NCBI RefSeq assembly: GCF_009831625.1
Contig: NZ_WUUS01000009.1
Span: 62,001-126,000, forward strand
Reading direction: 5' to 3'
From: Halobaculum saliterrae
GTDB lineage: Archaea > Halobacteriota > Halobacteria > Halobacteriales > Haloferacaceae
Length of the DNA: 64,000 nt
Below, in pieces: positions 5,926 to 8,970 of this stretch (within the stretch, counting starts at the first letter, position 1; each line of letters starts with the position of its first letter). Made by a program: the position numbers and the translations under genes. A model generated the notes under the pieces. That model was not told the DNA's origin. It saw only the letters and a list, made by a program, of their open reading frames with translations, and made no database searches.

Positions 5926-5997
5926 GGGCTCGTAGATCAGTGGTAGATCGCTTCCTTCGCAAGGAAGAGGCCCTGGGTTCAAATCCCAGCGAGTCCA
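5926..5997 (+). tRNA. tRNA-Ala (anticodon CGC)
   Basis: 72-nt cloverleaf without an encoded CCA and without an intron. Acceptor arm GGGCTCG/CGAGTCC includes the G3-U70 wobble pair (5928 with 5994), the classic alanine identity element. D-arm GATC/GATC with 'AGTGGTA' loop. Anticodon stem CTTCC/GGAAG with loop TTCGCAA, giving anticodon CGC for codon GCG. T-arm CTGGG/CCCAG with 'TTCAAAT' loop. Discriminator base A at 5997. Decayed mobile-element genes start within a few hundred bases downstream, so this tRNA is a plausible integration site. Confidence 0.97.
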
Positions 5998-6163
5998 TCC
6001 CGTCGCGGCTCGCTCTCGAAGGACCACAAAACGGCGAGTAACAACTCTGAACCGGATGGTTTCTCCGTAGCGATGCGAAACGAAGTCGCGAACGACAGAG
6101 AGTTCACCGACACTCCCGGCGATCCCCACGCCGTCGGGCGAAGGAACGCGGCCCTCAGCGGGG

Positions 6164-6274
6164 GTGCTACTTGAGCGCCGAGCCCGACCGCTCGTGTGCG
6201 AGTGGTGCGGCTGTCCCATCGACGAGCCCGACAAGCGGTGCCCGGCCCTCGACGACGGGAGGCGTTCGCCGTGA
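6164..6274 (+). CDS. Micro-protein with Cys-rich zinc-finger motif
   Basis: 36 codons if started at GTG 6164; a GTG at 6194 giving 26 codons is an alternative. The peptide contains 'CEWCGCPIDEPDKRCP', an array of four Cys that looks able to bind one zinc ion, followed by an acidic tail. Its TGA stop (6272-6274) overlaps the GTG of the next small ORF (GTGA). It is the first of four frames joined this way. The composition (acidic, Cys-paired) is that of a real haloarchaeal micro-protein. Function unknown. Confidence 0.6.
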   Translation: MLLERRARPLVCEWCGCPIDEPDKRCPALDDGRRSP

Positions 6275-6378
6275 GGTCCTGCCCCGTACACGGCGTCCGG
6301 GTTTCAAGCCGGACGCCGCCCGGGAGCGGGATCCCGCGTCGCGTCTGCCCCGAGTGTTCCGTAGGTGACGGCCGGTGA
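6271..6378 (+). CDS. Micro-protein with CPxH/CPEC zinc-ribbon-like motif
   Basis: 35 codons from GTG 6271, overlapping the preceding stop as GTGA. It contains 'CPVHG' near the N-terminus and 'VCPECS' near the C-terminus, the two halves of a minimal zinc ribbon separated by about 20 residues. The stop (6376-6378) overlaps the GTG of the next frame. No known function; the pairing with another Cys-rich micro-protein suggests both belong to one small module. Confidence 0.6.
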   Translation: MRSCPVHGVRVSSRTPPGSGIPRRVCPECSVGDGR

Positions 6379-6503
6379 CGCGGTCGATCGCTCGCGAACA
6401 CGTCCACGGTGCGACGGTGTGGGCCTACGGCGGCGGAGCGGCTCGGGTCGTCCCGTGGGACCGGCCACCCCACCTCTCCCGGTTCGGAGGTGTCGCACGG
6501 TGA
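6375..6503 (+). CDS. 42-residue protein of unknown function
   Basis: Third frame in the GTGA-linked chain: GTG at 6375 overlaps the previous stop, and its own TGA (6501-6503) overlaps the GTG at 6500. The middle reads 'VHGATVWAYGGGAARVVPWD', compact and hydrophobic rather than random Arg-rich, which supports coding. I do not recognise a family. The case for it being a gene rests mainly on its exact spacing within the chain. Confidence 0.5.
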   Translation: MTRSIAREHVHGATVWAYGGGAARVVPWDRPPHLSRFGGVAR

Positions 6504-6969
6504 GCCGTTTCGACGACAACGGCCGCACGCTTCCCGACGCCGCCCAGGTGACGGTCGTGGACGCCGTCAGCGGCGACGACGCCGAGCTGGCGGAGCGACT
6601 CGTCGCGGCGCTCGTCGACGGGACGCACGCGCCCGACCGCGCGGACTGGTACGACGTGGTCGTCGAGCGGACGGCGACCAAGATCGAGGTGAAGTCCGCC
6701 CACAAGCAGGTGGACGACGAGTATCCCGCCGAGGGCCGGTTCCGGCTGTGGCGATGACAGATCCGGAGCCTCGTCGCGTCGCGGTTCGCGGACGAGTCGG
6801 GGACGACGTGGGTCGCGTTCGTGTTGTTCGACGGCGATACGCCGGTCCACGTCGGCGGATGCACGCGCGGACCGCGCGGGATCTCGTCGAGGACACCGTC
6901 GGCTGGGGACCGTCGGGTCACGAGGAGTGGGACGAGCAGGCGAAGGTGCCAATCGAGGAGGTGTTCTAA
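6500..6969 (+). pseudogene. Broken PD-(D/E)XK nuclease-like gene
   Basis: Opens at GTG 6500 (overlapping the previous stop) and runs 85 codons to an in-frame TGA at 6755-6757, just after 'GRFRLWR'. The same frame continues sensibly past the stop ('QIRSLVASRFADESGTTW', 'VAFVLFDGDTPV'), then the coding signal moves to another frame around 6845-6860 and ends with 'GHEEWDEQAKVPIEEVF' and TAA at 6967-6969. So one nonsense change and one frameshift separate it from an intact gene of about 155 codons. The core 'DWYDVVVERTATKIEVKSA' has the Asp then Glu-x-Lys spacing of PD-(D/E)XK nucleases; this fold assignment is an inference. The truncated 85-codon product could still be made. Confidence 0.65.
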
Positions 6970-7007
6970 TTACTGAGCGAGAGCCATCATCGGGCTAAAA
7001 GGACAAG

Positions 7008-7018
7008 AATAAATTATT
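7008..7018 (+). promoter_or_regulatory. TATA box of the AT-rich membrane-protein gene
   Basis: The sequence 'aataaattatt' is centred about 25 bp above the GTG at 7038, the spacing expected for a leaderless archaeal transcript. A second AT-rich patch, 'taatataaat', lies closer at 7022-7031. Confidence 0.5.
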
Positions 7019-7037
7019 TGCTAATATAAATAGACAT

Positions 7038-7316
7038 GTGCTAAAAAAGGCAGTTGTTAAAATTAGTCAGGAGTTCGCTATTGGCGTTCGACTGATTATC
7101 GTTGGTGCGTCCGGTGGTATTGCGGCAGAATTTGTACAGAGAACCGGTTTCGGGTTTTCTGTAGCAGGCCTACTCCTCATTGGGCTGGGTATTGCTGTTA
7201 TCCTGCTACTCACTGGATACGTCACATATGCGGCCCCGATCTGGTTCCGTGAGGAAGAGCGACCATCTGTGAGAGATTGGTTGATAGATAGCTTGGACGA
7301 CTCAAGCACGAACTGA
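7038..7316 (+). CDS. Small two-helix membrane protein in an AT-rich island
   Basis: 92 residues from GTG 7038. Two hydrophobic stretches (about residues 16-36 and 41-68) make a hairpin, with a short charged C-terminal tail 'WFREEERPSVRDWLIDSL'. The DNA is visibly AT-rich and uses codons such as AAA, TTA and ATT that its neighbours avoid, so it was probably acquired from outside. The start is supported by the TATA box about 25 bp upstream; an ATG two bases earlier is in another frame and hits TAA at once. It lies between the broken nuclease-like gene and the broken integrase. No family recognised. Confidence 0.7.
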   Translation: MLKKAVVKISQEFAIGVRLIIVGASGGIAAEFVQRTGFGFSVAGLLLIGLGIAVILLLTGYVTYAAPIWFREEERPSVRDWLIDSLDDSSTN

Positions 7317-7449
7317 CACCACTGTCATTATTTCTATATTTGGATTCTTCTCGGTTTACAGAGATGCACGTCTGTAAAACCGGATCCGCTCACGCCCGAG
7401 TCCTCCCCGCGTTTCTAGGGCTTGCAGTCAAACGATTTGACAGCGAACC

Positions 7450-7880
7450 ATGGCGTGGACGAGAGAACCCCTCACCGAGGACGAACTGAGCACTCTCCTG
7501 GAGGCCGCCGACGAGCGCGACCTCGACCACCGGGTGACGATCTACACGCTCGCCCACACCGGGATGCGTGCCGACGAGCTCGCGCACATGACCGGCGACT
7601 GGGTTGATGGCAGAACGAGCGGATCCGTGTACCGCCACAGGAGGGCGCATGGTCGCCAAAGACCGAGCACGCCGCCTGAACCATTCCCATCAAGCAGCCG
7701 GAGGCGCGGCGGCGACTGCGCGACTGCTTCGGATACCACGTCGTCGCTGCTGAGTTCGATTCACACAGGCGGTCGACGACGTCTCGCGTTCGATCGTCCA
7801 CCGGCCACGATAGCGGATCCACCGTTCGTTCCCCGTGTTGGAGACCTCCTTACGGAACCGACGTTACGTCAACTGGGCCG
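7450..7880 (+). pseudogene. Decayed tyrosine recombinase (integrase)
   Basis: Starts well at ATG 7450 ('MAWTREPLTEDELSTLLEAA') and reaches the catalytic Arg box 'LAHTGMRADELAHMTGDWV'. Near 7606-7612 one base appears lost: continuing in the shifted frame gives 'WQNERIRVPPQEGAWSPKTE' and 'TIPIKQPEARRRLRDCFGY', interrupted by a TGA where homologues would be expected to have an Arg (CGA to TGA). A further stop occurs in the last recognisable part near 7810. The C-terminal His-x-x-Arg and Tyr motifs are not visible. So it is a dead XerC/D-type integrase with at least one frameshift and two stops. Its 3' end runs into the 3' end of the oppositely oriented GCS2 gene. Confidence 0.8.
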
Positions 7881-8970
7881 TGGAGTCCGAGACCGTCGAC
7901 TCCCCCGTCAGCCGCTGGACGTCGGTACGGAACCGTTGCGCTTGTTCGAGTCGGAGCTTCCGGGCCTCCGATCTCGTAAGGGTCGGTGGACCGCTCAGTT
8001 GCGGTGAGAGCGGCTGATACTTCGAGAGGTCGAACCCCATCTCCCGCAGATATTCTCTGACCGGGACGGCTCCGAGCCCCGATCGGATCGCCTGCTGGCT
8101 GAGGTCTCGGAGCTCGGATAACTCCGGCAGTCGGATTCGATCGGAGTGAACGCCCGGGGTTCCGAACTCGATACGTTTGTCGCTCGTCTGGGAGACGAGT
8201 CGACCGACATCGGTCGCGATCTGGACGATCTGGCTCGGTAGCGCCGCGTCGGGGGCACGCCATTCGACTGTCGGTTGGCACTCACGGAGGCGAACGGGAT
8301 TCAATACGGTGTCCTCCGGTTCGAAGAATCTCTCGACGGTTTCCGTGGGAACGCCGCGCTCGCTGGCAAGTCGCTTGAAGACCTCGTACATGTGATCGAC
8401 GCGTCCGTTCCATTCCTCGAGGCTGTCCGCGTAGTCCCACAGATCGCAGTATCCACGGAACTTGGGGCCGCACTTCCTTCTGTAAGCGTGTGCTCGGGAG
8501 GAATCGCTCCCGTTCTCGCCGGAGTAGTACGGCGACGTACTCAACAGCGCGAGCGCGGGATCGAGCGCTGTCAGGAGGTTGATCTGGTCGATGGAGTCGT
8601 CCCTCTCGAAGTGGACGTGCGTTCCGGCGCAGTTTTTCGCGCTCGTTACGTTATACCCATAGATTGTCTCGAAGAGTCGCCCTCGCTCAGAGTGAACTGA
8701 CGCGTCTGAAGCTGTCAGTGGCGTCCCGAGCGGAACGAGGTGCTTTCCCTCCGCGCTTGCCGCTCGTATCGCCGTTTGAAGCGTCGTCTGAAGGTCCTGC
8801 CGCAGTGCTACTTCGGTTTCGTGTGGCTCCGTCTGTACCTCGATAAGCGGCCCAATAAACTCGGGTTTGATTCGCTCGTGAGAGTGGGGAATCTTCTGGC
8901 CGTCGCACAGTCGTCCCGAGCGATCAACGACCCATAGCTCCAGTTCGATGCCGGTTTTGATGTCACACAT
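7864..8970 (-). CDS. Carboxylate-amine ligase of the GCS2 (glutamate-cysteine ligase 2) family
   Basis: 368 residues. The N-terminus 'TGIELELWVVD' matches the family's metal/ATP-binding Glu-x-Glu start (Glu9, Glu11), and 'GTHVHF' (116-121) is the second conserved motif. Family members form gamma-glutamyl or related amide bonds using ATP; some haloarchaeal members make gamma-glutamylcysteine, the main thiol of these cells. This copy differs from the usual haloarchaeal GshA sequence I would expect ('GVEEEF' start), so its substrate is uncertain. It sits alone among mobile-element remnants, with a truncated regulator gene just upstream on the same strand, suggesting lateral acquisition. Confidence 0.8.
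   Translation of the reverse strand: MCDIKTGIELELWVVDRSGRLCDGQKIPHSHERIKPEFIGPLIEVQTEPHETEVALRQDLQTTLQTAIRAASAEGKHLVPLGTPLTASDASVHSERGRLFETIYGYNVTSAKNCAGTHVHFERDDSIDQINLLTALDPALALLSTSPYYSGENGSDSSRAHAYRRKCGPKFRGYCDLWDYADSLEEWNGRVDHMYEVFKRLASERGVPTETVERFFEPEDTVLNPVRLRECQPTVEWRAPDAALPSQIVQIATDVGRLVSQTSDKRIEFGTPGVHSDRIRLPELSELRDLSQQAIRSGLGAVPVREYLREMGFDLSKYQPLSPQLSGPPTLTRSEARKLRLEQAQRFRTDVQRLTGESTVSDSTAQLT

Follow-up and report, generated by a model that had tools for sequence, protein, structure and literature searches.

Remnant of a provirus-like element beside a haloarchaeal tRNA-Ala gene, with micro-protein genes that recur at the ends of tRNA-integrated proviruses

The analysed window is a 64,000-nt stretch of the Halobaculum saliterrae genome (contig NZ_WUUS01000009.1, positions 62,001 to 126,000). 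Beside a tRNA-Ala(CGC) gene, a provirus-like element has left a remnant that extends from 5977 to approximately 7880. It carries a chain of small overlapping ORFs that recurs in other genomes. There, the bridging frame, P1, P2 and the SWIM gene follow one another, in most cases with xTGA overlaps of 4 nt, and form the att-proximal end of proviruses integrated at tRNA genes. We consider it quite probable that the window holds the end of a dead provirus and that, in the living element, the same genes form an att-proximal operon completed by excision. What the tRNA-proximal end retained is a compact early operon, composed of the bridging frame, P1, P2, P3 and the SWIM gene, and, after an internal deletion, the remnant decayed through point changes and truncation. 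The features of the region, all on the + strand, are the following.

5926..5997, +, tRNA-Ala (CGC) (ARAGORN), probable integration target (attB/attL); the same tRNA gene hosts complete Haloferax proviruses
5977..6174, +, 3' half of the bridging frame, without a stop from the tRNA 3' end as far as TTGA 6171-6174, on the conserved P1 start
6164..6274 (conserved core 6194-6274), +, P1, 36 aa, Cys-rich micro-protein (CxxC...CPALDDGRxSP) with relatives; last Cys lost
6271..6378, +, P2, 35 aa, predicted zinc-ribbon micro-protein (CPxCG...RRVCPEC) with relatives, which show an excess of third-position differences
6375..6503, +, P3, 42 aa, micro-protein SIAREHVHGATVWAYGGGAARVVPW of a haloarchaeal mobile-element family
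6500..6757, +, fourth ORF, 85 aa, with a TGA stop
6500..6577, +, N-terminal remnant of a SWIM zinc-finger gene (VSRFDDNGRTLPDAAQVTVVDAVSGD), similar in DNA to the SWIM genes of two genomes, G087 and G386
6572..6969, +, remnant of a nuclease-like gene (possible PD-(D/E)XK), interrupted by an in-frame TGA (6755-6757) and, further on, by a frameshift
7038..7316, +, AT-rich ORF of 92 aa with hydrophobic segments, lying between the remnants of nuclease and integrase
7450..7877, +, remnant of a tyrosine integrase, aligning in two frames to a Halobaculum marinum integrase

The chain of overlapping ORFs

P1, P2, P3 and the fourth ORF are linked by three GTGA overlaps, at 6271-6274, 6375-6378 and 6500-6503, as reported in the first-pass annotation of this DNA. 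The further claim that chance would rarely give three identical overlaps in a row fails. When sequence of matching composition is simulated with a first-order Markov model and a minimum ORF of 25 codons, approximately 11 three-junction GTGA chains are expected per 64-kb strand, and further chains of this kind are present on both strands of the window. Because such chains are common by chance in the GC-rich window, the GTGA overlaps are not evidence by themselves, and the simulation rules out the overlap chain as a proof in its own right. P1, P2 and P3 are considered real genes because they are conserved in other haloarchaea, not because they overlap. The chain also begins one frame earlier than had been noted, with the frame that is open through the tRNA 3' end.

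Micro-proteins P1, P2 and P3

The peptides, which had been judged plausible, belong to genuine conserved micro-protein families with relatives in many haloarchaea. In a genome of the same genus (G087), P1 is 64% and P2 76% identical, and the pair shows the identical GTGA overlap and lies just after tRNA-Val. A four-row P2 profile matches 79 of 342 genomes of the order (E<=0.01), although the weakest of these matches may be other zinc ribbons. A separate search detected P3 relatives in 27 of 170 genomes of the family (E<=0.1); approximately 15 of these matches are strong. Differences between relatives concentrate at the third codon position in both P2 (e.g., 3, 1 and 12 at the three positions in one pair) and P3 (5, 2 and 15; 6, 7 and 20), and both are therefore coding.

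The first two products, described at first pass as potentially zinc-binding, are zinc-ribbon-like by motif prediction. P2 relatives are similar in size and motif pair to haloarchaeal C(P)XCG zinc-finger micro-proteins, which have two such motifs in <70 aa (PMC11241148, PMC6562870). Most of them feature both knuckles. In contrast, P2 in the window does not carry two motifs of this type, as a His replaces the second Cys and the protein contains CPVHG, where CPxCG is expected, and CPEC. P1 in the window is probably a frameshifted relic, since its Cys-containing part is read in another frame than its conserved start, the TTG at 6171 within the TTGA overlap. P3 matches no named family and appears to be a micro-protein family without a name so far; it occurs in several contexts resembling mobile elements, including one beside an integrase (L057).

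Two gene fragments fused in the fourth ORF

The fourth ORF had been read as a nuclease-like gene, now broken, that closes the cassette. Its homology is split: residues 1–26 correspond to the start of a SWIM protein and the remainder to a nuclease-like gene, which rules out the ORF as a natural gene. DNA similarity to the SWIM genes of G087 and of a relic in G386 stops at 6577, and protein similarity to the nuclease-like gene starts at 6572. The intact G386 SWIM protein begins VSTDDRRTLPDAAEVTVSDAVSGDVLDF, and the window ORF begins VSRFDDNGRTLPDAAQVTVVDAVSGDDAEL and then continues as nuclease. In complete proviruses (L011, L012 and L013), the nuclease-like gene lies after the ATPase gene, approximately 7–8 kb from the tRNA. 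The adjacency of two segments normally so far apart results from an internal deletion that joined, at approximately 6577, the start of the SWIM gene to the nuclease-like gene from the integrase side. The zinc-binding part of the SWIM protein, containing the CxC...CxH core, is absent from the window and has been deleted. A SWIM relative (G052, L049) scores 20.1 bits against PF04434 (cut-off 19.6). The G386 relic features a different deletion: there, the SWIM gene breaks off and the C-terminus of an integrase comes next.

A search of genome contigs with the fourth-ORF product returned no relative. In the nuclease family, the motif WYD(x10)EVK is conserved, and one model of a type II restriction enzyme gives a weak match; the structure model of the nuclease (pLDDT 55) is too poor and gave no fold match. 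A second degraded copy of the nuclease gene, 84% identical in DNA to the window over 280 nt, is found with a site-specific integrase on the Halobaculum marinum plasmid NZ_CP119990.1 (L009 4904-7668), where no tRNA was found within the 18 kb around it.

Decay of the element in the window

The mobile-element context suspected at first pass is borne out. The tRNA gene ends 274 nt before P2, within the approximately 300 nt expected for the first zinc gene of a tRNA-integrated provirus. The integrase remnant covers residues 1-141 of the 178 residues of the Halobaculum marinum integrase, and the C-terminal part is missing. The 92-aa ORF matches no family. A direct search of the window for attR, a direct repeat of the tRNA 3' end, found none. 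We therefore call the region a remnant, not an intact provirus, and, with no attR copy in the window, we infer integration at tRNA-Ala(CGC) from the anatomy of the region and from its relatives. No ORF for a structural gene is present in 5977-7880, and the structural genes are taken to have been deleted. Signs of decay are the P1 frameshift, the Cys-to-His change in P2, the stop within the nuclease gene, the truncated integrase and the lack of a second att copy.

Gene order and the bridging frame in relatives

The gene order is kept in other haloarchaea, as bridging frame–P1–P2–SWIM recurs just after tRNA genes. A complete tRNA gene (tRNA-Ala, Val, Pro, Ile, Met or Trp) ends 130-280 nt upstream of P2 in 20 of the 30 best P2 loci, the window included, and one further locus (L041) has a tRNA 3' half. 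The other nine have no tRNA end nearby, a point against the reading preferred here. P1 and P2 are joined by GTGA or ATGA in many loci. The gene that usually follows P2 encodes a SWIM zinc-finger protein and mostly overlaps it by 4 nt; exceptions are L018 and L024, which have a TAGTG junction and no xTGA overlap. The window and the G386 relic share the order P1-P2-P3-SWIM, with 73.5% DNA identity over 370 nt.

Each of the 20 loci beside a tRNA has a frame that can be followed without a stop from the tRNA 3' end to the start codon of the first zinc gene, where it terminates. The stop is part of an xTGA overlap in 18 loci and of TGATG in L019; in L033, the bridging frame is P1's own frame. The combined chance of finding these frames open in 19 loci is approximately 1e-11 if the loci are independent; of the two remaining frames, 2 of 38 cases are open. 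When attR is joined to attL in complete proviruses, the frame is open across attP and ends at P2. A natural attP occurs at the junctions of a tandem array in G386, where the order is integrase -ATGA- 30-aa bridge -GTGA- P1 -GTGA- P2 -GTGA- SWIM; the ORF upstream of the bridge is called an integrase from its C-terminus IEQHYDHP, not from a family search. The bridge lacks a third-position bias (17, 10 and 10; 18, 28 and 20), and thus its openness is kept while its amino acid sequence is not conserved. Only the 3' half of the bridging frame is left in the window.

Complete relatives

The complete relatives of this kind are proviruses of 12-13 kb that feature direct repeats of the tRNA 3' end, an integrase, an AAA ATPase, a nuclease and capsid-like genes. 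Several are found at tRNA-Ala(CGC) in named Haloferax species, H. marisrubri, H. mucosum and H. larsenii among others. The ATPase is of the packaging type, and the nuclease-like gene follows it, far from the tRNA end. P1 and P3 are both present in the window copy and are missing from the complete Haloferax elements L012 and L047. In many elements, the SWIM gene is followed by a regulator of the RHH type.

Neither the putative capsid protein nor the ATPase of the relatives matched phage records by sequence, and a search of viral contigs with the ATPase gave no match. The top 20 PDB matches of a moderate-quality model of the capsid-like protein (pLDDT 69) are all capsids of P23-77, SH1, HCIV-1 or HHIV-2, the best having an E value of 1.3e-3 and a TM score of about 0.5. 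Judging from this model, the Haloferax tRNA-Ala proviruses appear to encode a sphaerolipovirus-type capsid protein. The candidate gene, known by this structure match only, maps near 8080-8640 on the minus strand in L082-L085.

In G386, which belongs to the same genus as the window, near-identical 21.9-kb elements are arranged in tandem at tRNA-Val (L111-L114; G386:C1:49500-80000 and 2765500-2795000). P1-P2 pairs are located at 2,766,937, 2,788,830, 2,810,930 and 50,924, and the diverged P1-P2-P3-SWIM relic lies after the tandem elements, at 72,812.

Possible role of the att-proximal genes

In the betapleolipovirus SNJ2, an operon comprising the integrase gene, orf26 (which spans attP) and orf19-25 is formed upon excision; when any one of orf19-26 carried a nonsense mutation, the genome no longer replicated, but excision still took place (PMC13107129). 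By position, P1-P2-(P3)-SWIM are likely to be part of a similar early or replication operon. In a living element, these genes would lie just beyond the attachment site and would therefore be cut off from the integrase gene in the provirus. Excision would close the circle and restore the attP-spanning frame, joining integrase–bridge–P1–P2–(P3)–SWIM into one overlapping unit of transcription and translation that would serve genome replication or early control. The zinc-finger genes of intact relatives would then probably be switched on upon excision and circularisation, and their products, the SWIM protein included, are probably small factors that bind nucleic acids or proteins. Position is the basis on which the SNJ2 mechanism is applied here, because the P2 query, run against phage and plasmid records, matched no halovirus and no plasmid. 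SWIM relatives are also found just upstream of RepA in SNJ1 and HJIV1, with one small gene in between. The first-pass suggestion of a regulatory or defence cassette was thus close in its regulatory part; the defence part finds no family signal beyond weak matches.

The main rival to the replication-operon reading is that P1-P2-SWIM form a unit for the control of excision or lysogeny, acting as a recombination directionality factor or as a repressor/antirepressor. The position beside the attachment site, the RHH-type regulator downstream of SWIM and the existence of small helper proteins of IntSNJ2 (PMC8371274) are all compatible with such a unit. However, the stop codons placed in the att-proximal genes of SNJ2 abolished replication and not excision (PMC13107129), and in SNJ1 and HJIV1 the SWIM gene belongs to an operon just upstream of RepA, so that we regard a control unit as rather unlikely. 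Much less probable is that the window carries a host cassette, of independent micro-proteins or for defence, that is still active. P3 is intact and differs from its G386 counterpart mostly at third positions, and P2 is open, but the frameshifted P1, the altered P2, the truncated and fused SWIM gene and the broken nuclease and integrase genes argue against activity. Moreover, PADLOC found no match to known defence families for the products of the four ORFs, and only weak ones (E about 0.007) for SWIM and nuclease relatives. The notion that the ORFs arose by chance in GC-rich DNA agrees with the frequency of GTGA chains at the composition of the window, yet it is contradicted by peptide conservation with synonymous bias and by the conserved order elsewhere, and its probability is close to nil.

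For the operon completed by excision, a broader and tentative proposal, which we hold as possible rather than probable, is that several unrelated types of haloarchaeal proviruses share an excision-gated, translation-coupled chain of integrase, attP and zinc genes, in which the bridge is mainly a translational relay and the P3 family an interchangeable part. The bridge may act in this way because it is kept open and its amino acids are not conserved. If so, integration would interrupt the relay, and translation of the replication genes would be shut off. Since the G386 tandem array shows the attP-spanning operon in a chromosome, excision gating can be tested beyond SNJ2.

Comparison with known systems

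The module had been considered undescribed. However, a CDS that spans attP and precedes a CxxC gene has been published for haloarchaeal proviruses, the bridging CDS being described in pleolipoviruses and Halfvol2 (PMC7911831), and the arrangement has been functionally tested in SNJ2 (PMC13107129). The provirus arrangement is hence already known; the P3 family, apparently unnamed, and the broader picture of the bridging arrangement are new. Halfvol2, a provirus at tRNA-Ala, has been placed in a new group that matches no known virus (PMC7911831). It and related Haloferax proviruses likewise target tRNA-Ala, measure approximately 12-13 kb and have a CDS bridging attP, and a provirus SWIM gene, as found in the relatives analysed here, is annotated in H. 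volcanii (HVO_0362, PMC11899642). From site, size and this SWIM gene, not from direct alignment, we infer that the complete relatives are Halfvol2-like. Unlike these proviruses, the window copy has lost its middle and right end.

SNJ2 likewise combines, in a compact arrangement, an integrase, an attP-spanning ORF and small att-proximal ORFs (PMC13107129). The likeness to P1, P2 and P3 is one of position, and the element in the window is dead. In the Simuloviridae (SNJ1, HJIV1 and NVIV1), the SWIM protein is a relative with 34-35% identity, and in HJIV1 a CxxC...CxxC gene overlaps the SWIM gene by ATGA; P2 had no match in these three viruses at E<=10.

P1-P2-SWIM, sometimes with P3, is a recurrent haloarchaeal module that gene callers can easily overlook. 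As it marks the att end of integrated viruses, it can help to locate both proviruses and what remains of them. Variants of the module were also observed. In L115 and L116 (G078 and G386), P1 without P2 is located directly after tRNA-Ala, and P3 lies approximately 2.7 kb further. In L071, L076 and L081, P3 is followed, via an ATGA overlap, by a gene of another nuclease-like family (VEIKS/VEIRS motif, approximately 158 aa), which differs from the nuclease remnant in the window.
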